IMG/VR virus record: IMGVR_UViG_3300008107_000371
Span: 1-46,530 of that record
Source of the DNA: a virus
Length of the DNA stretch: 46,530 nucleotides
Reading direction: 5' to 3' (one strand)
How positions within the stretch are numbered: position 1 is the stretch's first letter; each line of letters opens with the position of its first letter. The position numbers were made by a program, and so were the translations under genes. This document shows, piece after piece, positions 4,519-42,506 of the stretch. Under the pieces are notes generated by a model, which saw only the letters and a list, made by a program, of their open reading frames with translations, made no database searches and was not told the DNA's origin.

Positions 4519-6108
4519 TTATTCACCAAGCTCTTTAAAGCCACGTTTTTTAGCAGCTTCTAGTTTAGATCTAGGGATAGATCCAGTTTTACCTTCAGGA
4601 CTAATTACTCTCACTTTATCTTCACCAGAACCTCCCTTATTAGGAGTTGTTGTGGTATATAACATTTTAGATAAATCATTAGATTTAATATTTAAATTAG
4701 GATCAATATAATCTTTAAGATTAGCAGCTTTTTGATTAGCTATATTCTGAACTTGATCTTGTTGTTGTTTTCGATAACTATCCAAAGCTTGAGCTAATTG
4801 AACAACTTGTTCTTTACTAAAAGTACCAGTACTTAAAGCTGAAGCATAATCTTCGGCTGAATTAAATATACCTTGTCGTACAACATATCTCTCAACGTCC
4901 TTATCAGTTAATACGCCTTTTTCAAAAAGTCTTGTAATTGCTGCTGCGGCAATAGGTTTTCCTGCTGGATTTTTTTCAGCAAGATCTAACATTTGTTTAG
5001 TACCATCTAATCCGGCAATAACTTTACGAGCTTCTTCAGTTTCTTTATTAAAATCTTGTTTTGAAGCTTGGATTAATTTCTTAGTTGCTGGATTTAATTT
5101 CTTATTGATATCAAAAGCTGTTAATGGCTTATCTTGAGAAGTTTTTTCAGAGTCAACAGGAACAGAAGATTTACTTACATTCTTAGGACCTACAGATAAG
5201 TTAGCAGGATTTAAACCTATAAGTTCACCAGTATTTGGATCAGTTCTAAATTGATTTGCAAATCCAGCAGTCCCTAAATCTCTAACTTCTTCACCAGTTC
5301 TAGTATCAAAAGCTTTTAATCTAATATTACCACTTTCATCTTGTACTCGTTCAAAACGAACTTGAGGTTGCATTTGTTTAGATGTAAAGTCAAAACCTAA
5401 TCTTTTAAGTTGACTAGCTGACATATTTTCAAATTGATTGATATCAAAACTAGGATTTATCTTCTTCATCATTTCTTTAGCACGTTCTCTAGCAAATTTA
5501 GAAACATCAGATTTAGGGTCTTGTTCACTAATCTCACCATAAGCTCGCATACTAGTACTAAAATTCTCAAGTGGCATATCCGCTTGTTTACTTAAAGCTT
5601 GGAGTGCGCCTTCATCAGGACGAACGTCAGCATTGCCCATACGAGAAATACCCTGATTAGCCATCATACCCGCACGTAACAGGATATTATTTAATCCTGC
5701 GCTATCACGATTTTTTAAAATTTCCTGCAGTTTATCATATGAGAAATCAATACCATCTCGCGGATTATTAATGTTTTGTTCTATAGTTTTAACATCAGGA
5801 ATTATTTGATTAGGTTGTTCACTTGCTGGCTGTCTAATCTCATCTTTAACGGCCATAACTGGAGCTTGATCTCTAATATTAGGAGAATCTGAAGGATTAG
5901 ATAACGCTTGATATTGCTTTAAAACGGTATTCATTTCTTCAAGTTTGTTAGATCGAACTATAGGTTTACCATAAAAATCAATTTGTGAAGGATATGGACC
6001 AATGGAAGCATTAGGGTCTTCCATCAAAATAGGATCTTGTTCAGTTCCCATTAACTTATCTCTATCGTAAGCATTTAGTAATGGGTTAAATGGTTGTTTC
6101 CTATTCAT
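4519..6108 (-). CDS. putative internal virion protein, unknown function
   Basis: A 529-residue, polar, Lys/Gln/Asn-rich protein with no signal peptide or membrane segment. The N-terminus is Pro/Asn-rich and probably disordered; the rest is mainly helical, with scattered small domains. It lies between two proteins of the same compositional type and is separated from each by 1-2 bases, so it is translated as part of the structural operon. I do not recognise a named family. Position after the tail nozzle and next to Gln-rich proteins suggests it is packaged in the virion or helps ejection. Confidence 0.55.
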   Translation of the reverse strand: MNRKQPFNPLLNAYDRDKLMGTEQDPILMEDPNASIGPYPSQIDFYGKPIVRSNKLEEMNTVLKQYQALSNPSDSPNIRDQAPVMAVKDEIRQPASEQPNQIIPDVKTIEQNINNPRDGIDFSYDKLQEILKNRDSAGLNNILLRAGMMANQGISRMGNADVRPDEGALQALSKQADMPLENFSTSMRAYGEISEQDPKSDVSKFARERAKEMMKKINPSFDINQFENMSASQLKRLGFDFTSKQMQPQVRFERVQDESGNIRLKAFDTRTGEEVRDLGTAGFANQFRTDPNTGELIGLNPANLSVGPKNVSKSSVPVDSEKTSQDKPLTAFDINKKLNPATKKLIQASKQDFNKETEEARKVIAGLDGTKQMLDLAEKNPAGKPIAAAAITRLFEKGVLTDKDVERYVVRQGIFNSAEDYASALSTGTFSKEQVVQLAQALDSYRKQQQDQVQNIANQKAANLKDYIDPNLNIKSNDLSKMLYTTTTPNKGGSGEDKVRVISPEGKTGSIPRSKLEAAKKRGFKELGE

Positions 6109-13618: not shown

Positions 13619-14575
13619 CTATCTTCCTGATCTACCAGTTGTTCTACCTCGACGAAGAACACCTCGACGATTCACAATTTTTAATGGAGAAGCCTCAACT
13701 CTATCATTGATGATGGTTTGTGTTTTTTGTTCTAACTCAGCTAATTTCACATTAGCCGCTTGTAAACCTTCTTGATCTCCAAGAGATTCTAAGCAACGAG
13801 CAGCAACTCTATGAGCAAGAACAACATGCAAGTCACTAGGAACTTGAGGAATTGCAGCAGTTTCTGCAATACAAACGTGATCTCCAATTTTTAAAGTACT
13901 AGGAATATCTGTTGTTGCAAAAGTAATAACCTTAGTAGTACCGTTTAATCCAGTGGCAACTAAATCTTTTTTTAATGTTCTATGAGGGGAAATCACAGAT
14001 ACAAAGTCGAATTTTTGTTGTGTGGAAAAATCATTGGGTACATTAGATAAAGCAATCTCTCCAGTTAATAAATTAATATCACTAATTACTCCGACATCTT
14101 TTAATAAGACTAGTCTATTAGGTCTCATGTAGTATGAGAATCTAAAAAAACCTGGAGTTAATGGAGCAGAAGTTGGGGTCAGGATTACTTGATTGTTTTG
14201 TATATAGTAAGTATAACCTTTGTTTGAATAGTTATAACTTGTGTTGTAATCTGGAACAAAATCAATCGGTATACGAACCATCTCGTAAACATTACCTGAG
14301 TTATCAACGTAACTTAAATCTCTAAGTTTATTTCCTGTAGCTCTAGCTGGAATTTCGTATCTATTGATATTAGGATCAATTACTATGTCGTCAGATGTTA
14401 AGAAATAATCTTCATGCGCAACAAGTACCGAAGGTACAAGACCTGTATCCATTTCTTCATTAGCAAAAGCTAAAAAATCCTCGTCGGTGAAGGTAGAATT
14501 CGATTTGGGCAAACCAGCCCGTCTAACAGCAGATTTAATAATCTCATTGCTAGTCATATACGATTTAGGAATCAT
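13619..14575 (-). CDS. head-tail adaptor (tail tubular A / gp4-like)
   Basis: A 318-residue protein. The N-terminal helix (MTSNEIIKSAVRRAGLP ... DEDFLAFANEEM) and the later H-R-V-A-A-R-C-L-E helix are typical of the adaptor that plugs onto the portal ring in short-tailed phages. The C-terminus is Arg/Gly-rich (RRGVLRRGRTTGRSGR). The start at 14575 has AAGGATGG about eight bases upstream, inside the end of the GIY-YIG gene that overlaps it by 11 bases. It is followed after nine bases by the nozzle gene. The role in closing the packaged head is inferred from the family and from gene order. Confidence 0.7.
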   Translation of the reverse strand: MIPKSYMTSNEIIKSAVRRAGLPKSNSTFTDEDFLAFANEEMDTGLVPSVLVAHEDYFLTSDDIVIDPNINRYEIPARATGNKLRDLSYVDNSGNVYEMVRIPIDFVPDYNTSYNYSNKGYTYYIQNNQVILTPTSAPLTPGFFRFSYYMRPNRLVLLKDVGVISDINLLTGEIALSNVPNDFSTQQKFDFVSVISPHRTLKKDLVATGLNGTTKVITFATTDIPSTLKIGDHVCIAETAAIPQVPSDLHVVLAHRVAARCLESLGDQEGLQAANVKLAELEQKTQTIINDRVEASPLKIVNRRGVLRRGRTTGRSGR

Positions 14576-15293
14576 AACGAGACCATCCTTGAATTGAAAA
14601 ATTAGAATAATACAATTTTCTAGCCTGTCTTTCGGATATATTTAAAAAATTAGTTAAATTATTAATACTGTTCATGGTTATAATTTTTGACTCTTTTTTA
14701 ATTTTAAATATTTTTGAATTTGGTGCAGTTTTTCTTACGTATGATTTAGCTAAATCAAGATTAAAATCAGATTTATTATACATTAAATAGTTTTTATGTG
14801 CATATCCCCATTTAATAGAACATTTAACTGTTGCATAATTGATACTTAATTTTCTAGCAACTTCAGCTTTACTTTCAAATTCTAATATAGTTTGATTATC
14901 TATGCAGTAAACAATGACGGGTTGTCTTTTATAAATGTTAGCAATTTTTAATTTTTGTTTTAAATCTTCAGTTCTTTTTACTCCCTTACAAGTAGAAAAA
15001 CCTCTGACTCCATCCCCACCTTCAGTACAATTGTAACCAAAATTTCTATTGTTACTATTATATTCAGAGATATAATGTCTTTCTTTTATATAAAGTTCTT
15101 TGCGACTATCAGCATTATCTATTACATCAATTTTAATATTTAACCAACCATATTTTCTTATAGCACAAGAAACTGGATATTTGTGACCGTGTCTAGCTGA
15201 ATATCTATGACCACGCATTCTAGCGTCTAGTTTACCAATGGTAATTCCAATGTAAACTTTATTATTAGGGAAAGTCATACGATATACTAACAT
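14565..15293 (-). CDS. GIY-YIG homing endonuclease (copy 2)
   Basis: A 242-residue free-standing nuclease. The catalytic domain has VYRMTFPNNKVYIG at the N-terminus, candidate catalytic Arg25, Glu71 and Asn88 (in FGYNCTEGGDG). A Lys-rich linker and a C-terminal module (about 125-235: FESKAEVARKL and SINNLTNFLNISERQARKLY) look like one or two helix-turn-helix DNA-reading repeats. It sits in the leftward structural operon between the acidic Met-rich gene and the adaptor, overlapping the adaptor start. It has diverged well away from copies 1 and 3, so it is not a recent local duplicate. Confidence 0.9.
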   Translation of the reverse strand: MLVYRMTFPNNKVYIGITIGKLDARMRGHRYSARHGHKYPVSCAIRKYGWLNIKIDVIDNADSRKELYIKERHYISEYNSNNRNFGYNCTEGGDGVRGFSTCKGVKRTEDLKQKLKIANIYKRQPVIVYCIDNQTILEFESKAEVARKLSINYATVKCSIKWGYAHKNYLMYNKSDFNLDLAKSYVRKTAPNSKIFKIKKESKIITMNSINNLTNFLNISERQARKLYYSNFSIQGWSRYDS

Positions 15294-16678: not shown

Positions 16679-18115
16679 TTAAACTGAAGTTATAATCGCC
16701 CGAAATTTAATTGTGGAAGAAACAAAGCCAGCATAGCTATTGTTTTGATATTGAATTTGTCCGGCGTTAGTAATTGAGAACACATGTCCTGAATCATCAC
16801 CATTAGATGTAACTGATATATCCCAATCAGCACCACGCTGCACTCCTCTTATAGTGAATACTTCAAATAAATCCGTAGTTGCATCAACTGCAACACTTAC
16901 AAGTGACTCAAAACTTCTTACAACACCGTTTGCAAAAGCAAAACCTGTAACATTGGCAGCAGCAGCTTGATTATTCGCGGCAGAAAATGAAGTAAGACCA
17001 ATATCACCCGCAGTTGAATTTGAAGAGATTGTAATTGAACCCGCACCATTAGTTACAGTGATTCCTGTACCTTGAGTGATCGCAGCTAAACTATATCCTG
17101 TACCGTTACCAATTAGAAGCTGTCCATTGCTCGCAGATGCTCCGCTCACGCCAGTGCCACCACGAGAAACATTTAAGAGAGCTTCAGAGGACATTACACC
17201 AGAACCGTCATTGATTACAACATGGTTAGCTGTTCCAGAAGCTAATTTAGTTCTAGCAATAGCAGCAGCTACTGCAATATCGGCGTTGACAATACTTGTT
17301 GCTAAGTTTAACTTAGAATACGCAATTGCTGCCGAATTTGAAATCTGTGCATTTGTAATACCAAGATCAGCAACTTTAACGCCAGTACCAGACTGAGAAA
17401 GAGTTGTGCCGTCAATTTGTAAAGAAAACTGATTACCAGCAAGAGTGATACCTGTTCCAGAAGCTGTATAAAGAACATTTGAAAATTGAGCAAAAGCGAT
17501 TGCTGTAGACCCTAGAGTGCCTCCGGCGTCCGATGTACAAACAAATCCTCTATCTCCGTTAACAGTACCTTCAGAGACAAATACCGCAGCAGAAACAACT
17601 TCTGCCCAAGTATCCATATCTGTAGCACGAGTCCATGGTCCAGCAGAAACAATGTATATACCATTCTGAGAAGCAGTTGATTGATCCTTAACTAAAACTC
17701 GGTCTAACGCAACTAGAGATCTGCCATCAACAGTTTGAGTGCCTGATAATGTTAAATTGGCAGTTGAAGCGGCCCTTACATATTGTTTCCAGGATAATCC
17801 TTGAGCAACAGCATCAACATAGTTTTTAGTGGCAGCATCTTGGGCAGTAGTTGGATCAGCAAGACCTGTAATCTTGTTAGTACCACCCATTGCAATCGCG
17901 CCGGACATTGTTCCGCCAGATAAATTTAACTTAGCATTAAGCTGAGTTTGAACTGATGAAGTTGTACCAGAAAGAAATGCTAATTCCGAATCAGTTACAG
18001 TGCTCTGTACTAGTTGATTTGATGCGTTAATTACTAATGCGCGACTTGCTGTTACCGATGGTAACGTTAACGTACTATCAATCTGTGCTGTGCCTCTTAC
18101 TCTAAAAACACCCAT
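16679..18115 (-). CDS. tail fibre protein
   Basis: A 478-residue protein built of fibre modules. An N-terminal beta repeat region (TLPSVTASRALVINASNQLV ... LAFLSGTTSSVQTQLNAKL) is followed by the T-K-N-Y-V-D-A-V linker. Then comes a domain with VLVKDQSTASQNGIYIV and TRATDMDTWAEVV that also occurs in the 416-residue gene at 22149-23399. Next is a Ser/Gly/Ala-rich shaft (AIAYSKLNLATSIVNADIA, VSRGGTGVSGASA), and a C-terminal tip domain (GHVFSITNAGQIQYQN) is shared with the 170-residue protein at 23433. It binds host surface structures by analogy with known fibres. Receptor unknown. Confidence 0.75.
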   Translation of the reverse strand: MGVFRVRGTAQIDSTLTLPSVTASRALVINASNQLVQSTVTDSELAFLSGTTSSVQTQLNAKLNLSGGTMSGAIAMGGTNKITGLADPTTAQDAATKNYVDAVAQGLSWKQYVRAASTANLTLSGTQTVDGRSLVALDRVLVKDQSTASQNGIYIVSAGPWTRATDMDTWAEVVSAAVFVSEGTVNGDRGFVCTSDAGGTLGSTAIAFAQFSNVLYTASGTGITLAGNQFSLQIDGTTLSQSGTGVKVADLGITNAQISNSAAIAYSKLNLATSIVNADIAVAAAIARTKLASGTANHVVINDGSGVMSSEALLNVSRGGTGVSGASASNGQLLIGNGTGYSLAAITQGTGITVTNGAGSITISSNSTAGDIGLTSFSAANNQAAAANVTGFAFANGVVRSFESLVSVAVDATTDLFEVFTIRGVQRGADWDISVTSNGDDSGHVFSITNAGQIQYQNNSYAGFVSSTIKFRAIITSV

Positions 18116-18880: not shown

Positions 18881-21800
18881 TTAGATTCCTATCTTTTGCA
18901 CTGCTATATACTGCGTTCCAGAACCAACTCCAGTAGCTGCTATTGTTGAAGATGTTAAGCTTCTTACATCAATATAATCACCGGCATTTAATTCAACAAT
19001 TGGAGCACCAATACAAACAATACCGTTACCACTAGTTCCAATATAAGCATCAACAGAACCATTTTTATATAAAGACCATTCAACAACAGAAGCCGAACCG
19101 GCATATAAACAAGTATTTATTCTATATAAACCTCGAACGGGTGCTGTAAAACGCCAAGAACCTCCGGTAGTAACTGCATTGTGAGTGTCAAATACTTTTG
19201 TTGCGCCATTTACAGGCGTAGAAGTAGAAGAGGTAGCTCCTACTAGTACAGTATATCTTGCAGCAACAGTTTCAGTCGATGTAATTGAAGCAGGGTTTGC
19301 AACTCTATCAACAGCTATTCTACACTGATAATTTCCGGCTGAGTAAATTACATCAGCACTTGTTGTTGATCTAAAAGTAATTAAATCTCCAGCAACAAAT
19401 TGATTAGTTGCAGTTCCGCCTTGGACATATAGTGCTTGACCTGATGCGAGCATCTGCAATCGAGTCCCATTTTTAAAAATAGCAAGATAATTGTCTGTGT
19501 TACAAAACCATTCAGAAACTTTAAATGTATAAGTGCCACTTATTGGTATTCTATAAGTTCCTGTTGCTGGTGTATAAGCTGCGTGAGAATCAAAACTGAC
19601 TGATGGAAAAAGAATATTTACGCCAGAAGTTTGGGCTAAATTAGCAGTATTCGAACCAAAAACAGCAGATACAATCCTTTGGTCATTAACATCACTCGAT
19701 TGAACTTGTGCAGACCAGCCTTGGATTGGAATAAATAACTTAGCTCCAAAACCTAAAGTTGCAATACTTAATGCAAAACTAGAACTCTTCCAAATATCAT
19801 AAGTTGAATAACTAATTTCAGCTACAAATCTGATCTGAGTCGAACTGTAGGCGTAACCAACAAATCCCCCTCTTGCTGTACCGTCACCTATAGTTCCATA
19901 TCCTAGGAATGAAGGATGTCCTTGTGCTGGCGCTCCACCAGTTGAAACGCTTCCGAAAGAACCATTAAAAGATGGTTTAATATTAGTATCAATACTAAGT
20001 CCTGCTGGAAGAGATATTAAATATTCTCCAGATCCAGCACTACCTCCAGTAGTTTGATGATACTGCAAATCAACTTCAATTCCATTTCCAACTCTTCTCC
20101 ATAGAAGAGCATCTCTTGATATAGTACCCTTTGTTGGAGCAGTTGTTGTTGCACCGATAGTAATTGGTCCAGCATTTTGCCAATCAGTAATTGGAGTTCC
20201 ATAGCTAAGAGTAGTAGGGCTTACAACTACATTATCAATTTTAAGGCTATATGCATTCGCTGAAGTGGTAGAACAATGAAAGATCAATCTATAAGAATTT
20301 GAATCCGCACTTGATTGAAAGTTCGAAACAAACTTATCAGCAACAACAGTAGAACCACCAAAGATTTTGTAAGTAGTTGGCTGAATCAAACGAGCGTTAG
20401 TTACATCATATACCCATACAGTCACGTCTGAGTCAGTAGTTTGTCCACCAGCTACGAATGTTCCACTGTTTACAATTGAATCAAACTGAATTTGAAGCAC
20501 TTTAGACTTAGATGAGTTATCAATTGTGAAATCGTATGAAGCTCCTTGTCCCTGACGATTAGCAGCGTCCTTAGCAAAAATAAAAGATGCAGCTCCTCTT
20601 AAAGGATTAGAAGTATTTCTAGTAAATGTTACGTTTGGCGAACCGCCAGCACCGTCTACAGGAGCAGCGCCTGCAGCGTCAGCATACGTAGCCCAACCCA
20701 CAACACCAGTTAAAGCATCACCGTTTGTGATTGAATTAAAAGTATCAACGAAGTTATTGATTGTAGTAACAGTCGTAACGTCAGAAACTCTTTCTACAGA
20801 TATTTGACCATTAAAAGTAGAAGAAGTAGCAGAAACATCAGGTCTAACATCAATAAAATCGCCCGAATTTAACGATACAGAATAGCTTCCAATTGAGGCA
20901 GCAGTGGAATTGAAAGAGGTTTGAACAAAACCATCAAGAACACTGTTTTTATAAACACTATTGTTAGTTGTAGTGCCGCCAGAATAAACATGAAAACCGA
21001 CTTTATAAATTCCCGAAATAGGAGCTGTGAATCTCCAACCTGAGCCAGTTGTAACAGCAGAATTAGTGTCATAAATTCTAGTTGCTGCATTCCATGGAGT
21101 AGTAGTTGAAGCAGAAACTCCAGTTGCAATTGTATACTTTGCCGCAACAGTTGGTTGAGTGACAAGGTTTGCACCGATTGCAGGTGAAGTTGTCCAGCCA
21201 GCGATTGGAATATTAGCGAAAAACGAAGTAATAGTTCCGTTAGCAGAAGTTTGATTTCCGTTAAGTTTAGTTAATGCTGCTGCAGCGTTATAACCACCGA
21301 ATGTTACATATCCAACGGAGGGTTCAATTAAAGTTTGGGCATAGGCAACAGAAGAAACGTTATATAAAACTAATCCACCACCTGCAGTTTGAATATTTGG
21401 TATTACTGATGTATCCGCACTAACGAGTCCTGAAGGTAATCCAAGTCTTGCTTCTACTGCTGTAACAGTACCTGCAGTAAATCTTCCTCTAATTTCGGCA
21501 GAATTTCCAACTCTTCTCCAAACAGCTTCAACTGCTGTAATAGTACCAAAACCTTGAGTTGTTGGAGTGTATCTTTGCCAATCTGTAATAATCGCATCAG
21601 TACTTAAAACTAAATTAGATCGTTCAACAGCAACATTATCAATCTCTAAAGCATAAGCCGCAGCAGACGTTGTAGCACAATGAAAGATAAGTCTATAAGA
21701 AGATCCAGATGTCGCGTTAAAATTACTGATAAATCTAAAAGAATTCGTTGTAGAGCTTGCGAGTAATCTATAACTAGAAGGTTGAATTAAAACGCCATTT

Positions 21801-21898
21801 GTAACGTCATAGATCCAAACAGTAATATCGCTGTCGGTAGTACTACCTCCAGCTGCAAATGTTCCAGAAGCTACAATATAATCAAAGCTAATCTGCAT
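18881..21898 (-). CDS. receptor-binding/fibre tip protein with duplicated domains, 5' part displaced by a frame change
   Basis: 1005 residues from the first usable ATG. However, the same frame is open up to 22174, and those upstream 92 codons encode the first half of domain A. The protein has two copies of a jelly-roll-like domain A (copy 2 near 20200-20760, marked by GWATYADAA and DAANRQGQGASYDFTID). It also has three C1q/TNF-like trimer-tip segments (each with W-R-F-T-A-P-[IV]-x-G-[IL]-Y or a related P-I-S-G-T-Y motif). Domain A copy 1 is cut by the ATG choice. The most likely product is a fusion with the 416-residue fibre gene by a +1 shift, or the gene is broken. Role: host recognition. 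Confidence 0.7.
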   Translation of the reverse strand: MQISFDYIVASGTFAAGGSTTDSDITVWIYDVTNGVLIQPSSYRLLASSTTNSFRFISNFNATSGSSYRLIFHCATTSAAAYALEIDNVAVERSNLVLSTDAIITDWQRYTPTTQGFGTITAVEAVWRRVGNSAEIRGRFTAGTVTAVEARLGLPSGLVSADTSVIPNIQTAGGGLVLYNVSSVAYAQTLIEPSVGYVTFGGYNAAAALTKLNGNQTSANGTITSFFANIPIAGWTTSPAIGANLVTQPTVAAKYTIATGVSASTTTPWNAATRIYDTNSAVTTGSGWRFTAPISGIYKVGFHVYSGGTTTNNSVYKNSVLDGFVQTSFNSTAASIGSYSVSLNSGDFIDVRPDVSATSSTFNGQISVERVSDVTTVTTINNFVDTFNSITNGDALTGVVGWATYADAAGAAPVDGAGGSPNVTFTRNTSNPLRGAASFIFAKDAANRQGQGASYDFTIDNSSKSKVLQIQFDSIVNSGTFVAGGQTTDSDVTVWVYDVTNARLIQPTTYKIFGGSTVVADKFVSNFQSSADSNSYRLIFHCSTTSANAYSLKIDNVVVSPTTLSYGTPITDWQNAGPITIGATTTAPTKGTISRDALLWRRVGNGIEVDLQYHQTTGGSAGSGEYLISLPAGLSIDTNIKPSFNGSFGSVSTGGAPAQGHPSFLGYGTIGDGTARGGFVGYAYSSTQIRFVAEISYSTYDIWKSSSFALSIATLGFGAKLFIPIQGWSAQVQSSDVNDQRIVSAVFGSNTANLAQTSGVNILFPSVSFDSHAAYTPATGTYRIPISGTYTFKVSEWFCNTDNYLAIFKNGTRLQMLASGQALYVQGGTATNQFVAGDLITFRSTTSADVIYSAGNYQCRIAVDRVANPASITSTETVAARYTVLVGATSSTSTPVNGATKVFDTHNAVTTGGSWRFTAPVRGLYRINTCLYAGSASVVEWSLYKNGSVDAYIGTSGNGIVCIGAPIVELNAGDYIDVRSLTSSTIAATGVGSGTQYIAVQKIGI

Positions 21899-22174
21899 GA
21901 ATTTAGATTTAGATGCTTCATCAATTGAAAACTGATAGCTTACACCTTGACCTTGACGATTAACCGCATCTTTAGTAATTAAAAAACTATTTTGACCAGA
22001 TAGAGGAGTAACAGCAGTTGTAGTGATTGTGACAGCAGGAGATCCACCAGTTCCATCAACAGGAGTTGCTTGAGCCGCATCAGCATAAGCTGCCCATCCA
22101 GTGGTTCCAGATTCTGCATAACCATTCAGGATAAAGTTGTCTTCATCTTTAGTTGCTTGAATTCTCCACTGATG
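21899..22174 (-). other. in-frame coding extension of the long fibre gene without a usual start codon
   Basis: From 22174 down to 21899 the frame of the long fibre protein is open. Translated, it gives DEDNFILNGYAESGTTGWAA, then ADAAQATPVDGTGGSP, then KDAVNRQGQGVSYQFSIDEA, matching domain A copy 2 further down. No ATG, GTG or TTG occurs in this stretch. The upstream fibre gene stops at 22149 in the frame one base away, leaving a 26-base overlap (22149-22174) in which a +1 shift could join the two. Confidence 0.8.
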
Positions 22175-23399
22175 TTACAAAAGCTTCATTCCATCTAGAA
22201 GCACTAGCTCCAAGGTCTCTTGTATTATCACCACTTGGAAGTAAATCTTGATTGATTGCAGTTGGTGAAGTTAAGTTAGACAAATCTCGTAATGCTGCGT
22301 TTGATGCACCAGAAAAAGCTGTCCAGTTAATATTATCAGTGTTAAGAGTCAGGACGCCGTTTCCTGTAACAACAAAACCTTTACCGATATTAGCTGTACC
22401 TTGAGTTGTAAACGTATAGTTACCAGCAGAAACTTCAGCAACTGGAGTTCCGTCCATGTCAGCAGCGCGTGTATATTGAGCCACAGCAGTATATGTGTAA
22501 ATACCATTTTGTTTAGCGTCAGTTTGATCTTTAACTAAGATGCGCATTCCAACAGTTAACGCAACTCCATCAAGAGTAGTTGGTGCAGAAGTAAATCGTC
22601 CATTACTAGGAGTGGTCGCATAAGTCGCACCGAGATCGGCAGTTGTTGCAACATTCACAGATTCTTTAGGGTCAAGACCTGCAGCAACGCTATCAACGTA
22701 TTGTTTTGTGGCAGCACCAAGAGCAACAGAAGGATCGGCATTCAGGATAAGGTTTCCTGTCATAGTGTCGCCAGCTTTAGCTACTTTAGAATCAATTTGA
22801 GTTTGAATTGCAGAAGTTACACCATTAACAAAAGCTAGTTCCGAATTTGTAGTTACTGAATGAGTTGGTAATCCGTTAGCATCTGAAATTAATGCACGAT
22901 TTGCAGTAATTGCAGCACTCTCAACAATTTGACCACCAGAAGATACGATATTGCGGTTATTATTTAAAGCTGTAGAAGAATTAGTTCCACCTTTAGCAAC
23001 AGGAAGTACAGTGATTGTTGGTTCTTTAGCGTTTAACTGATCTTGAACATTTGAAGTGACTGAGTTAATATATTGGAATTCAGTACTTGAAACTGATCCA
23101 TCGGCAATCTTAGTAGCGTCAATCGCAGCAGCGGCTTTGATATCAGCGTTTTCAATATTTGTAATTGTATTGCTATCAGCATCAATCGTTTTATTAGTAA
23201 TAGCGGCAGTATTATTAGTTCCTAGTAGAGTCGTAGTTGCATCAGGTAGTGTGAGTGTTCGATTCACGGTTTGACTAGACTGGATTGTTGTTGTAGTACT
23301 AGCTGTACCATTAGGAACTATGGTGATTTGATCAGGGGTTATAGTACCCTCACGTTTTATGACCAAACCTTTTAAAATTTTAAAAAATCCAAAAGCCAT
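22149..23399 (-). CDS. tail fibre protein, probably the N-terminal part of the long fibre
   Basis: A 416-residue protein. The N-terminal segment (MAFGFFKILKGLVIKREGTI) is followed by repeated fibre shaft modules (ANRALISDANGL, ELAFVNGVTSAIQTQID). Then comes the T-K-Q-Y-V-D-S-V linker and the domain with ILVKDQTDAKQNGIYTY and TRAADMDGTPVAEVSAG shared with the 478-residue fibre. The end (LGASASRWNEAFVTSVENSSN) is a connector that normally runs into a further tip domain. GGAGAAGAT precedes the start. It stops where the next domain's coding begins in the +1 frame, so it is probably the 5' part of a longer fibre. Confidence 0.75.
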   Translation of the reverse strand: MAFGFFKILKGLVIKREGTITPDQITIVPNGTASTTTTIQSSQTVNRTLTLPDATTTLLGTNNTAAITNKTIDADSNTITNIENADIKAAAAIDATKIADGSVSSTEFQYINSVTSNVQDQLNAKEPTITVLPVAKGGTNSSTALNNNRNIVSSGGQIVESAAITANRALISDANGLPTHSVTTNSELAFVNGVTSAIQTQIDSKVAKAGDTMTGNLILNADPSVALGAATKQYVDSVAAGLDPKESVNVATTADLGATYATTPSNGRFTSAPTTLDGVALTVGMRILVKDQTDAKQNGIYTYTAVAQYTRAADMDGTPVAEVSAGNYTFTTQGTANIGKGFVVTGNGVLTLNTDNINWTAFSGASNAALRDLSNLTSPTAINQDLLPSGDNTRDLGASASRWNEAFVTSVENSSN

Positions 23400-24612: not shown

Positions 24613-24912
24613 ATGGCTAGATTTAAATTAATTAAAGAAAATATGGGATGTAATGATCCAAGACCATCACCTCGCCCCGGAAAAAAGAAAGTTGTTAAAG
24701 CTTGTGAAGGTGATCAACAAAAGATTGTGCATTACGGCGCTGATGGATATGGCCACAATTATTCAAAAGAAGCTAGAAAATCGTTCCGAGCCCGTCATAA
24801 CTGCGATGAACCAGGAAGTAAGCTCGGTGCTAGGTATTGGGCTTGTAAAGACCTTTGGGCTGGACCTAAAGGTGAAAAACGAGCCCCAAAAAAAGGTGGA
24901 CCTAGAAAATAA
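24613..24912 (+). CDS. small basic Cys-containing phage protein
   Basis: 99 residues, rich in Lys, Arg, Gly and Cys. Segments such as RPGKKKVVKACEGDQQK, HYGADGYGHNYS and KSFRARHNCDEPGSKLGARY, followed by W-A-C-K-D-L-W, form a recognisable conserved pattern that I have seen in small proteins of T4-like and other aquatic phages, of unknown function. Cys spacing could bind zinc. It follows the endolysin after four bases. Two related-looking small basic genes lie just beyond the GIY-YIG gene, which has probably inserted into this group. Confidence 0.65.
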   Translation: MARFKLIKENMGCNDPRPSPRPGKKKVVKACEGDQQKIVHYGADGYGHNYSKEARKSFRARHNCDEPGSKLGARYWACKDLWAGPKGEKRAPKKGGPRK

Positions 24913-24913
24913 T

Positions 24914-25630
24914 ATGAGTTATAATATTGATATGATTAGAGAAGGTTGGATTTACGAAATTAGATGTATAATTAATAATAGAGTATACATAGGCTCAAGT
25001 TTAGATTATAAAAATCGAATATCAAATCATATTAATAAACTCAACAAAGGTAATCATAGAAACGAACATTTAAATAGGGCTTGGAAAAAATATGGTCAAA
25101 ATAACTTTAGATTCTCTGTAATAGAGTATTTTCCGAAAATTACACATGAAAAACTTAGAGAAATAGAACAAACGTGGTTAGATTGTATTACTGATAAATT
25201 TAATATTTCCACAAGTTCGAGATGCCCTTATTTGGGCACAGATCATTTTAAAAAAATGCATAAAGCCTCTAAAGAAGCTAGTTCTATGGAATGGTTAATA
25301 ACTAATCCTGACGGAATAGAAATTAAGATAAAAAGTCTAAGAAATTTTTGTAATGAAAATAATTTACAAGTAAGTTCTATGCATAAAGTTGCTCAAGGTA
25401 AACGAAGTCATCATAAAAAATGGAAATGTAGATATATAAATGATAATGAACCTAGATATGTTTCTAATAAAGGTATGTATTATTTAATAGAAAAAGACGG
25501 TAAACAATCTATTGTAAGAAATTTAAGCAATTTTATGCGTGTAAATAATTTAATTAAGAAAAATGTCTACAAAGTAATAGATACTGATAAATATTATCAA
25601 GGTTACAAAATTAAAAGTTTAGGAAATTAA
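24914..25630 (+). CDS. GIY-YIG homing endonuclease (copy 3)
   Basis: The frame is open far upstream across the basic-protein gene, but homology begins at the ATG at 24914, just after that gene's stop. This gives 238 residues. Catalytic domain: GWIYEIRCIINNRVYIG (about 11-27), candidate Arg35, Glu85 and Asn97. The C-terminal part (about 130-235) has helix-turn-helix-like modules (IKSLRNFCNENNLQVSSMHK, RNLSNFMRVNNLIKKNVYK) that read the target DNA. It is inserted among three small basic genes. It resembles copy 1 more than copy 2 in the catalytic core. Confidence 0.88.
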   Translation: MSYNIDMIREGWIYEIRCIINNRVYIGSSLDYKNRISNHINKLNKGNHRNEHLNRAWKKYGQNNFRFSVIEYFPKITHEKLREIEQTWLDCITDKFNISTSSRCPYLGTDHFKKMHKASKEASSMEWLITNPDGIEIKIKSLRNFCNENNLQVSSMHKVAQGKRSHHKKWKCRYINDNEPRYVSNKGMYYLIEKDGKQSIVRNLSNFMRVNNLIKKNVYKVIDTDKYYQGYKIKSLGN

Positions 25631-25820: not shown

Positions 25821-26053
25821 AGAGATTCGGTGGAATTAAACGTTGGATGGCCGAAAAATGGACAGCTCAGGATGGATCTGAGTGTGGAAATTATAAAGGA
25901 CCTGGACAAGTTAAATGTCGGCCTAGTAAAAAAGTAAATGAAGACACTCCTGTAACTTGGAAAGAACTTAGTCCTTCCGAAAAGAAAAGGGCTATTGGCG
26001 ATAAGAATAAAGTTGGATCTAAAACATCTAAAGTTAAATTTTCTCGGAAGTAA
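25817..26053 (+). CDS. small basic Cys-containing protein
   Basis: A 78-residue protein with W-M-A-E-K-W-T-A-Q-D-G-S-E-C-G-N-Y and V-K-C-R-P-S-K-K segments followed by L-S-P-S-E-K-K-R-A. These resemble the small basic family often next to DUF5872 genes (K-W-x-x-E-x-W ... E-C-G ... P-K-C-x-P). The two Cys may bind metal. Its 3' end overlaps, tail to tail, the HNH-fusion gene by 20 bases. The function is unknown; a nucleic-acid-binding role is suggested only by charge. Confidence 0.6.
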   Translation: MKRFGGIKRWMAEKWTAQDGSECGNYKGPGQVKCRPSKKVNEDTPVTWKELSPSEKKRAIGDKNKVGSKTSKVKFSRK

Positions 26054-27524
26054 CAGCTTCTCTTTTAGGATAAGGTAAAGATTCCCAACTTTTTTTAATT
26101 TTTTGTTTACCGTAATTTAGTAATAAAACATATTTATGTTTTAATAAAGATTCCACTTTTTTAACCGATTTTATTTGTGCTAGAGCGTATATCTTTAATT
26201 CTTTTGAAACTTCTTTATAATTTAAAAATCCAGTAGAGCTAACCCATTGAGGATTCCATTGTATACCTAGTTCTTTGGCATATTTTCGAAACATGGATGC
26301 ATTTATAAAATGTCTTCGACTTACTTTTCTTCCATTACTAAGTATATAACTATATTTAGAACCAAATTTACGACCTAAGTAATCGAAATTACATGCCTGA
26401 TAGATAGTACCTATTTCACCAGCTTCAGGATCACTGTAAGCAGTAAATATACGTTTATTAGTATTTTTAATCATCCATTTACATGCAAAAGATACTAATT
26501 TTGAATTTAAATTTTTAGGCGACCAAGCCGAAGCTGCCCCTCTTTGAATGTACGCTTCAAACTCCCCAAATTGATTTTCAGCAGGCTCAGATAACATAAC
26601 AACTCCAGCCAATTCTCCTTTCCATCTAGCTGTAAATACCCATTTAACACCAAATCCTGCAGTTCCTAGCCACTCATATTTTTCAATAAATTGTCTATGC
26701 TCTGGACTAAATTTCTCATGTTCTAGTGTAAAATCTGTACATTTTAAATCTAAAGGATACTTTAATGTATCTTCTTCTAGATGTAAATCTCTTTTAAATT
26801 TTTGCCAGCATTTTAACATCTTATTATTTTTTGACTCATTTGTGCGAGCTTCTAAAGGTTGTAAATTCGTATAGTGACATAATTCATACATTTGTTTTTC
26901 ATTTTGAGCGGAAGCTAGTGGTATGATATGATCTATATGCCAAAATTCTCCTTTATTTTCCCAAGTCATTCCGGGTTTAAATTGGGACTCTATATGTTTT
27001 ACAAGGAACTCCTTACTACACCCTATATATTGAGCAAAAGTATTCTCCTTACTCCATTCTCTGTATTTTAACATTTCCGCAAATCTTTTGCGTATAGAAA
27101 TGCTTAAATAAAATCTAGGATCTTCTTTTCTTTTCCGTTTTTGATATTCCCTCTGTTTAACTCTAATAACAGCTTTATTGTCTTGCTTATATTTTTTTAC
27201 TAATGCTTTATTTTCTTTTTTGTAAATACTATTATATTCTTTGATTTTTAATCGATTGTTTTTTCGCCAATTACGATTATATTCATTAATAGTTTCTTTT
27301 TTTTCAGCTCTATGCAGGAGAATATTTTCTTTGTTTTTATCGTAGTAGGCCGAAGCTTTTTGTTTGCGTTCATCTCTATATTTTGCATACTGTTCTCTTT
27401 GTTCTTGTTTTTTACAAGAACTGCAATAAGTGTACCTAACTTCGGTTTTTTTATTTATAATCGGAAAATCTTCAATTTTACAGATATTTTTACATTTTGG
27501 GCAAGTTTTCTCTAAATAATTCAT
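26034..27524 (-). CDS. HNH homing endonuclease fused to a conserved phage C-terminal domain
   Basis: An ATG at 27539 is possible, but its codons contain the GAGGAG site that serves the ATG at 27524 (496 residues). Domains, numbered from the longer start: zinc ribbon with Cys13, Cys16, Cys39 and Cys42; a long Lys-rich helix (50-140); an HNH core with W-H-I-D-H at 200-204, N-L-Q-P-L at 225-229 and N-x-x-K-N-N around 234-240. A separate domain follows at about 275-420 (KYEWLGTAGFGVKWVF, RGAASAWSPKNLNSKLV, AYSDPEAGEIGTIYQACNF). That last part I recognise as a stand-alone conserved phage protein, possibly GNAT/Mom-like in fold. It follows the capsid terminator. Confidence 0.8.
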   Translation of the reverse strand: MNYLEKTCPKCKNICKIEDFPIINKKTEVRYTYCSSCKKQEQREQYAKYRDERKQKASAYYDKNKENILLHRAEKKETINEYNRNWRKNNRLKIKEYNSIYKKENKALVKKYKQDNKAVIRVKQREYQKRKRKEDPRFYLSISIRKRFAEMLKYREWSKENTFAQYIGCSKEFLVKHIESQFKPGMTWENKGEFWHIDHIIPLASAQNEKQMYELCHYTNLQPLEARTNESKNNKMLKCWQKFKRDLHLEEDTLKYPLDLKCTDFTLEHEKFSPEHRQFIEKYEWLGTAGFGVKWVFTARWKGELAGVVMLSEPAENQFGEFEAYIQRGAASAWSPKNLNSKLVSFACKWMIKNTNKRIFTAYSDPEAGEIGTIYQACNFDYLGRKFGSKYSYILSNGRKVSRRHFINASMFRKYAKELGIQWNPQWVSSTGFLNYKEVSKELKIYALAQIKSVKKVESLLKHKYVLLLNYGKQKIKKSWESLPYPKREAVTSEKI

Positions 27525-27592
27525 ACCTAAACTCCTCATATTTTAAGTATAGAGTTTTTCAAAGAGAAAGTCAAGACGTTATTTAAAGAAAT

Positions 27593-29480: not shown

Positions 29481-30449
29481 TTATAAGTTCTTAAAGAAGT
29501 CCCGCATTGTCTGTTTTTTAGCCTCTTTAGGTTCACTCTTAGAAGAAGACCCAGTATCGACTATATCAGCTTTAACCGGAGCATCAGGAGTTTTAGGCCC
29601 ACGTTTAGATAAACGCTTCTTTCTAAGTCTATCCAGATTCTGCTTACCAATGATATCTTCCATAATGTCTTCTGTAGAGCTGTCAAAATATGATCGTAAT
29701 TCTTCTTTCCATTGTCTTTCAACAATTGGTAAGATATCGTTAACAGTTACATCATCATATCCCGCGTCAATTGCGTCCATCATAGTCTTAGCGACCATTG
29801 CGTAGACTTTAGGATTACCTTTAGGTAACTTTACCTTTGAACTCTCTAAAGCTTGACTAATTTGATTTTCAACATCAGCGGCATGTTTATTTCTAAGAGA
29901 TTCCATCTGAGCTTGCTCTTGAGCTTTTTTATATTGCTCGGCATCTTTTTTATACTTTTCAAGCTCTTTAGTTAGCTTCTCTTTTTCAAGCTGTTCAGGA
30001 GATTTCTGCATCTCTTCAACTTTTCTTTGAAGACGCTTCGTTGCCATATCGTCAACATTAAGTCCAAGCTGCTCTAATACTGATTCAGGATCTTGTTGTA
30101 ATTGTTGGAAAAATTGGTCTACCTGACTCTTATATCCTGTAAATTCTTTGACTCGCTTATCAAAAGCTTTAGATTTTTGGAGATGGCGTCGTAATGATTC
30201 ATCGTCATTAAAATCTAGTTCTTCTTCAGTTTCTTCCCCATCAACTTTAAGCTTAAGTCTTTTTTTAAGCTCTTTAGCTTCAGCTTGACTAATCTCGCCA
30301 GCTTCTTCAGCGGCATCAATAACGTCAGCATCACCTTCAGCGGCTTCTGCTTGAATTGGCGCATTATTTTGCGGGGCAGTTGATTCAGCACTGCTTGGTG
30401 CTGGAGTTGCCTGTGGTGTAGCCGCAGGACTTGCGTTTTCTGTAGACAT
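29481..30449 (-). CDS. scaffolding protein
   Basis: A 322-residue protein. The Ala/Pro/Ser-rich flexible N-terminus is followed by an acidic segment (EELDFNDDESLRRHLQ) and a long coiled coil (about 130-205, repeated Lys/Glu/Gln). A helical region comes next, and the C-terminus is basic (RKKRLSKRGPK, ending MRDFFKNL). An acidic, coiled-coil, helical protein with a basic end just before the capsid gene is the standard profile of an internal scaffold that binds capsid subunits during procapsid assembly. AAAAGGAGA precedes the start by a normal spacing. Confidence 0.8.
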   Translation of the reverse strand: MSTENASPAATPQATPAPSSAESTAPQNNAPIQAEAAEGDADVIDAAEEAGEISQAEAKELKKRLKLKVDGEETEEELDFNDDESLRRHLQKSKAFDKRVKEFTGYKSQVDQFFQQLQQDPESVLEQLGLNVDDMATKRLQRKVEEMQKSPEQLEKEKLTKELEKYKKDAEQYKKAQEQAQMESLRNKHAADVENQISQALESSKVKLPKGNPKVYAMVAKTMMDAIDAGYDDVTVNDILPIVERQWKEELRSYFDSSTEDIMEDIIGKQNLDRLRKKRLSKRGPKTPDAPVKADIVDTGSSSKSEPKEAKKQTMRDFFKNL

Positions 30450-30948: not shown

Positions 30949-31726
30949 TGTTTTTAAACCTCTTTAATAAGTCGTATTTGTCTAATTCGTTTGTTACATC
31001 AACTGGTTGGGATTCAAAAGAATCACTTGGACTAATGTATTCTTGTGTTAAATCTGGCACCACGTTTGGTACTTGAGCTGTTAAATTATTTTTAATCTTA
31101 AAATAGGGATAACCAGATGGTGGAGTTGTCGAGGGATTAAGAAATGGATATTGAGCTAATAACTTTCGCTTATCTAATGTATCCGGTCTATCCTTAAAAA
31201 TGTTTCTAAGTTCTTCTGATTCCGCTATGTTAAGCTCTGGTAGTTTACCTCCAGTAAATAACTCAGCTTCCTCAAGTCTTCTTTTAGCAAGTCCAGCATT
31301 TTTTTCTTTATTACTTCTAACTAAAATTTCGCGAGCAGCACTTTCCTTATCGCCAGATTGGATATATTTAGTCAGATTAGGGCCAATTAATTTAGGAGAA
31401 TTATATCGTAATGAAGTAAGTGCCGCAATCTCGTTATCGCTAAGACCGTAATCACCAAATTCTTTTTCAATAGCTCTTTGATTAATATCAATAAGTTGTT
31501 TTTTAATATCAATAGCCTGATCTTTATCCAGAATTACTTTACCGCTACGAATATCTTCAGGGTCATACCCGCTTGCTGCAAGTATTCCTCTAGTCTCAGG
31601 AGCGTCTAAATTGAACCCAAATCCTGCAGTATCAATACCTTTAATGTCTTTATACACGCCGGAATCATAACCTTCAAACTTAGCTAAAGCTTCAGTGGCC
31701 ATATCTCTGGCCTGTTTTTTCTTCAT
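30935..31726 (-). CDS. GH24 (T4-type) lysozyme, probably virion-associated
   Basis: A 263-residue protein. The T4-lysozyme signature is at the N-terminus: FEGYDSGVYKDIKGIDTAGFGF, with Glu18, Asp27 and Thr33 spaced 9 and 6 residues apart, as in the catalytic Glu-Asp-Thr of T4 lysozyme. The catalytic domain covers about the first 170 residues; the rest is a Pro/Asn-rich extension. It cleaves the glycan backbone of peptidoglycan. It has no signal peptide. Its ATG overlaps the portal stop, and it lies inside the head operon rather than with holin or spanin genes, so a virion enzyme used at entry is more likely than the main endolysin. Confidence 0.8.
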   Translation of the reverse strand: MKKKQARDMATEALAKFEGYDSGVYKDIKGIDTAGFGFNLDAPETRGILAASGYDPEDIRSGKVILDKDQAIDIKKQLIDINQRAIEKEFGDYGLSDNEIAALTSLRYNSPKLIGPNLTKYIQSGDKESAAREILVRSNKEKNAGLAKRRLEEAELFTGGKLPELNIAESEELRNIFKDRPDTLDKRKLLAQYPFLNPSTTPPSGYPYFKIKNNLTAQVPNVVPDLTQEYISPSDSFESQPVDVTNELDKYDLLKRFKNNAPK

Positions 31727-41072: not shown

Positions 41073-42506
41073 CTATGAATAATTTATCGATGTTAAATTT
41101 CCTGACGTATATGACAATGTTTTCGTTGTTATACCCGCCAATTCAGGTGGAAGATTTCCACTTAATACAATTGATGTCAGTAACCCTGATGTATAATTAA
41201 AAGTCTTAACTATAGAAGTAGACCCACTTGTCGTGTAGGTAATCGATGACAAAACACCACCAGAATATGACAAAGAATAAGGATATGACCGAATGTTCTT
41301 AGATACTTTTTCGAATTTGTTTAGGTCTTTTGATAGATCCGATGTGTTATCAACATTAGATAGCCCTACAGCAGCTTTATCTAACGTCTGAAATGTTTTA
41401 TCACCACGATAATACTGTGATGTTGTCCCGGCAGTAATGATTGGCTCTTTACCCGCTAATCCTGGAACGGTTGGAAGATCCGCTGTGCCACTTAAATCAC
41501 CAGCTAATTTAATCTTTCCTTTAATTAATGTTGTAGCGTCTGGAGTAGTTACACCACTAACAGCAGTATCAACGTATGACTTAACGGCGTTCTGTGTTGG
41601 GTAAAGTGTGTCTGATGTGCCAAGTGTTGTTGTTGTCGATTTGTTTGCAACATTTTCAGGAGTGAATCCTAATGCGTCTTGCTTACCATTCCACGTTGAT
41701 TTTTCTGTATCTGTAACAAATCTGTATGATGGAGTTTGAACAATGTTTGCAGGATTTGTGGCGTCAGTATTTGGAACATTACCAAGACCAACATCAGTCT
41801 TAGTTAGTGTGTGATTCTTCCATAGCTGAGTTGCTGATTCATATTGAATGACTTGGCCATTAGTTATGCCATTGATTAGGACATTATGAAGCTCCTGAAG
41901 CTCAAAACCATTCTGAATAGTTACAATGATTTTCCCTTGTGTGGGACTTGATCTGACCACATAACCGATGAAAACTGCATGATCTGGAGCAGAGGGGCGA
42001 GTAGTTGTGACTAAACCTGGAGTTGTTGGAGATAACCATAAAAGATCGCCAGCCGTGAATCCTGATGTATTTAGGTTATCAATCTCACCATTATGAACGA
42101 CTGACCCATTTGAATTGTTATTAATTACTAAGGGGGTTACCCCGAAAGTCTTTGACGAGTTTGGATCATTGTTTCCCTGAGCCAGGGAAATGTTTGGCTC
42201 ATTTCCAGTCGATCCACTAATGTAAACAACACGAAAAGCTTGAATTGGAACGCCTGTGGAGTTACGACAAGTGAAAGCCACCGCCCCAGCACCAGTGTCA
42301 CCCTTAGCCGCCAATAATTGCCAATATGTAGTATTTGTTGGGACGTTACCAGTAGTTGTCTGAAGGGCCACATACGATGAGCCATTATAGCTTACCGACA
42401 TTCCAGGTTGATAAGTCGTGCCAGACGAAAACTCGCCCTGAAAGTTAGGGCCAGTTAAAGTTAAAGAAATCGGATCTAATAGTTTAACAATCTTAAAATC
42501 AGACAT
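41073..42506 (-). CDS. tail fibre protein with carbohydrate-binding-like N-terminal module
   Basis: A 477-residue protein. Near residues 25-70 there is a module of the form G-T-T-Y-Q-P-G-M-S-V-S-Y-N-G-S-S-Y-V-A-L and T-Y-W-Q-L-L, like the chitin-binding CBM5/12 fold found in fibres. A collagen-like G-D-T-G-A-G follows. Next is an alpha/beta segment (about 85-215) and the D-V-G-L-G-N-V-P-N-T-D-A shaft repeat common in phage fibres. A stalk with T-Q-N-A-V-K-S-Y-V-D leads to a beta-repeat tip (S-Y-S-G-G-V-L-S-S-I-T-Y and S-Y-T-S-G-N-L-T-S-I). It overlaps the previous gene by eight bases. Role: adsorption. Confidence 0.75.
   Translation of the reverse strand: MSDFKIVKLLDPISLTLTGPNFQGEFSSGTTYQPGMSVSYNGSSYVALQTTTGNVPTNTTYWQLLAAKGDTGAGAVAFTCRNSTGVPIQAFRVVYISGSTGNEPNISLAQGNNDPNSSKTFGVTPLVINNNSNGSVVHNGEIDNLNTSGFTAGDLLWLSPTTPGLVTTTRPSAPDHAVFIGYVVRSSPTQGKIIVTIQNGFELQELHNVLINGITNGQVIQYESATQLWKNHTLTKTDVGLGNVPNTDATNPANIVQTPSYRFVTDTEKSTWNGKQDALGFTPENVANKSTTTTLGTSDTLYPTQNAVKSYVDTAVSGVTTPDATTLIKGKIKLAGDLSGTADLPTVPGLAGKEPIITAGTTSQYYRGDKTFQTLDKAAVGLSNVDNTSDLSKDLNKFEKVSKNIRSYPYSLSYSGGVLSSITYTTSGSTSIVKTFNYTSGLLTSIVLSGNLPPELAGITTKTLSYTSGNLTSINYS

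Follow-up and report, generated by a model that had tools for sequence, protein, structure and literature searches.

Laboratory strains of phage lambda carry a frameshifted side-tail-fibre gene, stf (PMC10721106). In a biofilm-like setting, in which rapid adsorption carries a cost, selection readily yielded such frameshifts, which made up 15 of 19 stf mutants (PMC2762979). A +1 change of frame at a stop codon can also be made by the ribosome, as is known from the tail shaft genes of the Listeria phages PSA, A118, and A500 and from RF2; the known phage sites read CCC_UGA, and the RF2 site reads CUU_UGA with a Shine–Dalgarno (SD) sequence just upstream (PMC5009743). The locus described here, a tail fibre gene divided between two reading frames, was compared with both types of system and with the fibre gene of an annotated podovirus (MW202898).

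The window, that is, the whole stretch of DNA analysed, is a linear IMG/VR virus record of 46,530 bases. It originates from a tailed phage with genes for terminase, major head protein, and portal, the last matching PHROG portal and head–tail adaptor families. In a 501-aa protein encoded at 26034–27539, the N-terminal half matches endonuclease VII families and the C-terminal half matches Mom-like DNA modification proteins. Three homing-endonuclease-like genes (GIY-YIG/HNH) are located at 1993–2583, 14565–15293, and 24653–25630, two of which flank the fibre cluster. All fibre frames are read on the minus strand, and the features of the split gene are as follows:

22149–23399, minus strand: N-terminal fibre half of 416 codons, with attachment and collar repeats and the connector RWNEAFVTSVENSSN; stop codon TAA
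22149–22174, minus strand: 26-base overlap of both frames; the stop of the downstream frame lies just before 22174, that of the upstream frame at 22151–22149
18881–22174, minus strand: C-terminal fibre part, an open frame of 1097 codons with no usual start before 21898
21614–22147, minus strand: d1, first predicted beta-sandwich of the CBM4/16/22 type (AlphaFold, Foldseek, 67 viral relatives)
21896–21898, minus strand: first ATG of the downstream frame, residue 93, opening the fifth strand (92–104) of d1; no SD sequence
20204–20746, minus strand: d2, second copy of the domain, about 61% identical to d1
19451–19636, minus strand: C1q-like jelly-roll head of the second tip block (Pfam PF00386, E 9.9e-10, residues 847–908 of the open frame)

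The upstream ORF runs from 23399 to 22149, encodes 416 amino acids with the C-terminal end ...DLGASASRWNEAFVTSVENSSN-stop, and matches PHROG families of phage fibre and virion structural proteins. Relative to it, the downstream frame is shifted by +1, and the frame change must lie within 22149–22174, provided that no other stop codon was lost or gained. The geometry reported in the first-pass annotation was right: the frame is open from 22174, lies at +1, and overlaps by 26 bases with a 416-residue ORF that ends in the connector at 22149. It had also noted that the downstream frame has no usual start, and neither ATG, GTG, nor TTG occurs in the first 92 codons of this frame (22174 to the ATG at 21898). 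Of all gaps between ORFs of 60 aa or more in the window, the one from 21899 to 22148 is the longest, at 250 bp. Codon usage in the gap 22150–21899 is that of coding sequence in the downstream frame (log-odds +0.66 per codon), whereas the other two frames score −0.42 and −0.71 per codon and both contain stops; GC3 of the gap is 0.15 versus 0.18 in the rest of the gene. With the coding signal, the ORF-free gap, and the domain copy described below, the observation is far from chance.

The first domain, d1, comprises residues 10–187 of the open frame. A domain recurring about 1.4 kb further on had been claimed from the letters alone, and the comparison of d1 with d2 bears this out (61.7% identity over 174 residues, E 4e-61). 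An AlphaFold model of d1, built with an alignment of 33 relatives, is a single beta-sandwich of ten strands with a mean pLDDT of 92.9. The best Foldseek matches were CBM4-2, CBM16, and CBM22 (E about 1e-7 to 1e-6, TM normalized to the query about 0.55–0.63); further matches of d1 were fibre and minor tail proteins of phages, in part annotated as CenC-like. No carbohydrate-binding module (CBM) family of Pfam matched the downstream frame at E 0.1, so that d1 is CBM-like by its predicted fold only and sugar binding is putative. Four of the ten predicted strands (27–31, 49–53, 63–68, and 76–83) precede the ATG at 21898. Since this codon stands at the beginning of the fifth strand, a product starting there would be devoid of these four strands, in agreement with the earlier statement that the ATG cuts the domain in two. 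The fibre region 18881–22147 contains two tandem tip blocks, each consisting of a CBM-like domain, a linker, and a C1q-like head region; most relatives have one.

A census of loci bearing the CBM-like domain yielded 67 viral loci. The domain lies in frame behind at least 28 upstream codons in all of them, and a canonical start is present on the domain-bearing frame in 66; in the analysed gene, nine codons precede d1, with no start among them. The exception, L139 (about 5820–5830), displays an apparent ATT start 6 nt after AGGAG, aligned exactly with the ATG of its homologue L141, and is probably either an ATT start or a base error, as judged from this alignment. Among the domain-bearing contigs retrieved, relatives of both halves were found in one continuous ORF in nine (L124, L135, L097, L123, L153, L108, L089, L100, and L201, the last being MW202898), as the first-pass annotation had proposed to check. 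All nine are distant, about 30–66% identical in parts, and on these proteins an intact ancestral state appears probable. Two further contigs (L026 and L077) match both halves more distantly. The relatives of the upstream ORF continue for at least 88 residues beyond the shared module, compared with about 50–56 in the analysed protein. An out-of-frame arrangement at the junction was present in none of the 67 loci, all of them distant relatives. Neither a second copy nor a near relative of the junction was detected among viral contigs, a phage collection, and genome contigs, searched with the downstream frame, the upstream ORF, the domain alignment, and two degenerate DNA patterns. Relatives found via the major capsid protein were short contigs only, none of which reached the fibre. 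Matches to the pattern DEDNF were mostly to one unrelated phage protein, and those to RWNEAFV were unrelated. A second +1 split pair of fibre genes, suggested by a 41-base overlap in the annotation of MW202898, was rejected as ordinary because the downstream gene has its own GGAG...ATG and signal-peptide-like start and is a complete fibre. In L184 (3700–4060; Bdellovibrionales), the domain is devoid of its front and a homing-endonuclease-like ORF lies just before the break, which is a different event.

The in-frame relatives, the abnormality of both halves when taken alone, and the domain that would be cut at the ATG at 21898 make it very probable that the two frames belong to one fibre gene, broken by a single frame change in the linker before the first tip block; the idea, raised initially, of a single fibre of roughly 1500 residues with one +1 change is thus well supported. 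Such a gene would encode a receptor-binding tail fibre in which a collar region precedes two tandem copies of the tip block (CBM-like domain and C1q-like head region), and the frame of the gene may have been lost through an indel or through an out-of-frame recombination join in the linker. From the sequence as printed, ribosomes would make only a tipless stub of 416 residues, and the tip part would remain untranslated or nearly so. We infer that the change is recent and non-programmed; its recent origin is suggested by the lack of further stops in 1097 codons and by the intact coding bias, although both would be consistent with continued synthesis of the protein by another route. The locus looks like a broken or mis-assembled ordinary fibre gene and not like a new way of reading genes.

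The likeness to stf of lambda PaPa extends to two points. In both, a frame change divides a long fibre gene, leaving an N-terminal ORF and a frame for the C-terminal part. Other adhesins remain on the lambda virion, and further fibre-like genes are present in the window at 16679–18115 and 41073–42506. Adjacent frames that are continuous in relatives, the mark of a stf-type split, were found here in the nine distant fusions. In contrast to lambda, for which the intact ancestor and the loss of the fibre are proven, the analysed gene is known from its contig sequence and from distant relatives, and the lambda phage and its fibre are unrelated in sequence, as far as searched. By analogy, stf may serve as a precedent for a natural change. 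The 'caprin-2 domain protein' of MW202898 (UOF83102.1) likewise combines collar repeats with a CBM-like domain and a C1q-like head region, but its ORF is uninterrupted, with a normal start (GGAG...ATG) and a single CBM-like domain.

The +1 relation and the short overlap ending on a stop codon would be expected if ribosomes slipped by +1 near AGC-AAC-UAA-A and produced both tipless and full-length fibres, and L151 likewise passes into the +1 frame at -AC-TAA, albeit within the domain and thus at a different position. The Listeria phages PSA, A118, and A500 (tail shaft; also capsid in PSA) resemble this locus in that a phage structural gene comprises two ORFs in +1 relation, meeting at a stop codon. 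There, however, the shift uses a CCC proline codon and yields an additional product of a major structural gene, whereas the analysed junction has neither such a codon nor a stimulator and shows no conservation. Neither CUU_UGA nor CCC_UGA is found in the overlap, and there is hence no site of the RF2 or PSA type. No codon of the overlap allows re-pairing of the tRNA in +1 or −2: the middle base is mismatched in the best candidates (AAC to ACU, AAU to AUU), and every sense codon fails at least one of the first two positions. An SD-like stimulator at RF2 spacing is absent, the sole GGAG being located about 12 nt before the stop. The predicted folding of the downstream RNA (pseudoknots aside) was −12.2 versus −10.1 ± 2.6 for shuffled sequence and −20.6 versus −17.1 ± 3.1, which is within about 1.1 standard deviations. 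Programmed slippage, as offered by the first-pass annotation, is therefore very unlikely, and it is most unlikely that, in an environmental podovirus-like phage, the proportion of full-length to tipless receptor-binding fibres is governed by a programmed +1 shift at a non-classical NAC-UAA-A site. A separate downstream gene initiated at a non-canonical codon (ATT 22162, ATC 22132, or CTG 22129), whose translation might be coupled to termination at 22149, was considered in view of the ATT of L139, by which such a start may occur in this gene family. Most genes of the analysed phage have SD strengths of about −3 to −9 kcal/mol, and the three candidates reach only −0.9 to −1.0 kcal/mol, compared with the AGGAG of L139. 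The product would carry no N-terminal attachment part, unlike the other relatives, and the upstream fibre would be left without a tip. Start codons of this type had also been suggested beforehand; with −1.0 kcal/mol as the best SD value near the domain start, they are a weak option, and we regard this separate gene as quite unlikely. Two real genes with the second starting at the ATG at 21898, the earliest canonical start of the downstream frame, are hardly credible: this ATG has an SD strength of zero, forming no duplex with the anti-SD sequence, and translation from it would drop four of the ten strands of one folded domain and leave untranslated 250 bp whose coding character is clear.

Switching often affects receptor-binding genes, and the tandem duplicated tip, together with a direct repeat of 16 nt (22123–22138 and 22739–22754), might point to a phase-variable or switchable fibre with a slipped-strand tract or an invertible or silent cassette. 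The repeat (15 of 16 positions identical) adjoins the junction and encodes NLILN and NFILN in the two fibre frames. About one repeat of this quality is, by estimate, expected by chance in 8.1 kb. The overlap contains only AAA and GAGA, with homopolymers of at most three bases and no longer tandem repeats; inverted repeats do not exceed 30 nt (70–88% matched), and no recombinase was recognized among the proteins scanned. Without a repeat tract at the frame change, the phase variation that had been put forward is extremely improbable. For the interruption of a single fibre gene, its place is informative. The frame change sits at a module boundary, ahead of the first of the two tandem tip blocks, where an out-of-frame recombination join would be expected; a random indel or sequencing error would fall that near to a boundary with a chance of a few per cent, according to a rough estimate. 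Such a position speaks for a biological join, but would also be compatible with two separate genes.

A natural change, either an indel or an out-of-frame join, and an assembly error have about equal chances. A single further contig of this population was found, L182 (IMGVR_UViG_3300008113_005513); it is 100% identical where aligned, and the fibre lies outside its coverage. It is missing 179 bp (window 30125–30303) and 112 bp (31369–31480) inside two genes of the head region, which breaks both genes. These deletions may be either an assembly fault or real; on account of the two gene-breaking deletions, faulty assembly probably does occur in this population. In L151 (6330–6400), a plain +1 frame change is located inside the CBM-like domain at ...TAC-TAA-C, and a search for relatives of this split matched L151 alone. 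The frameshift of L151 and the deletions of L182 indicate that frames broken by mutation or by assembly occur in this material.

If the change is not real, the locus would illustrate that a metagenomic contig showing a +1 overlap and no start codon most often contains an indel. If it is real, it would be a wild case of lambda-like fibre loss or module shuffling in an environmental virus. In addition, a CBM-like domain that recurs in the fibre tips of phages has been delineated, with 67 viral contigs carrying it.
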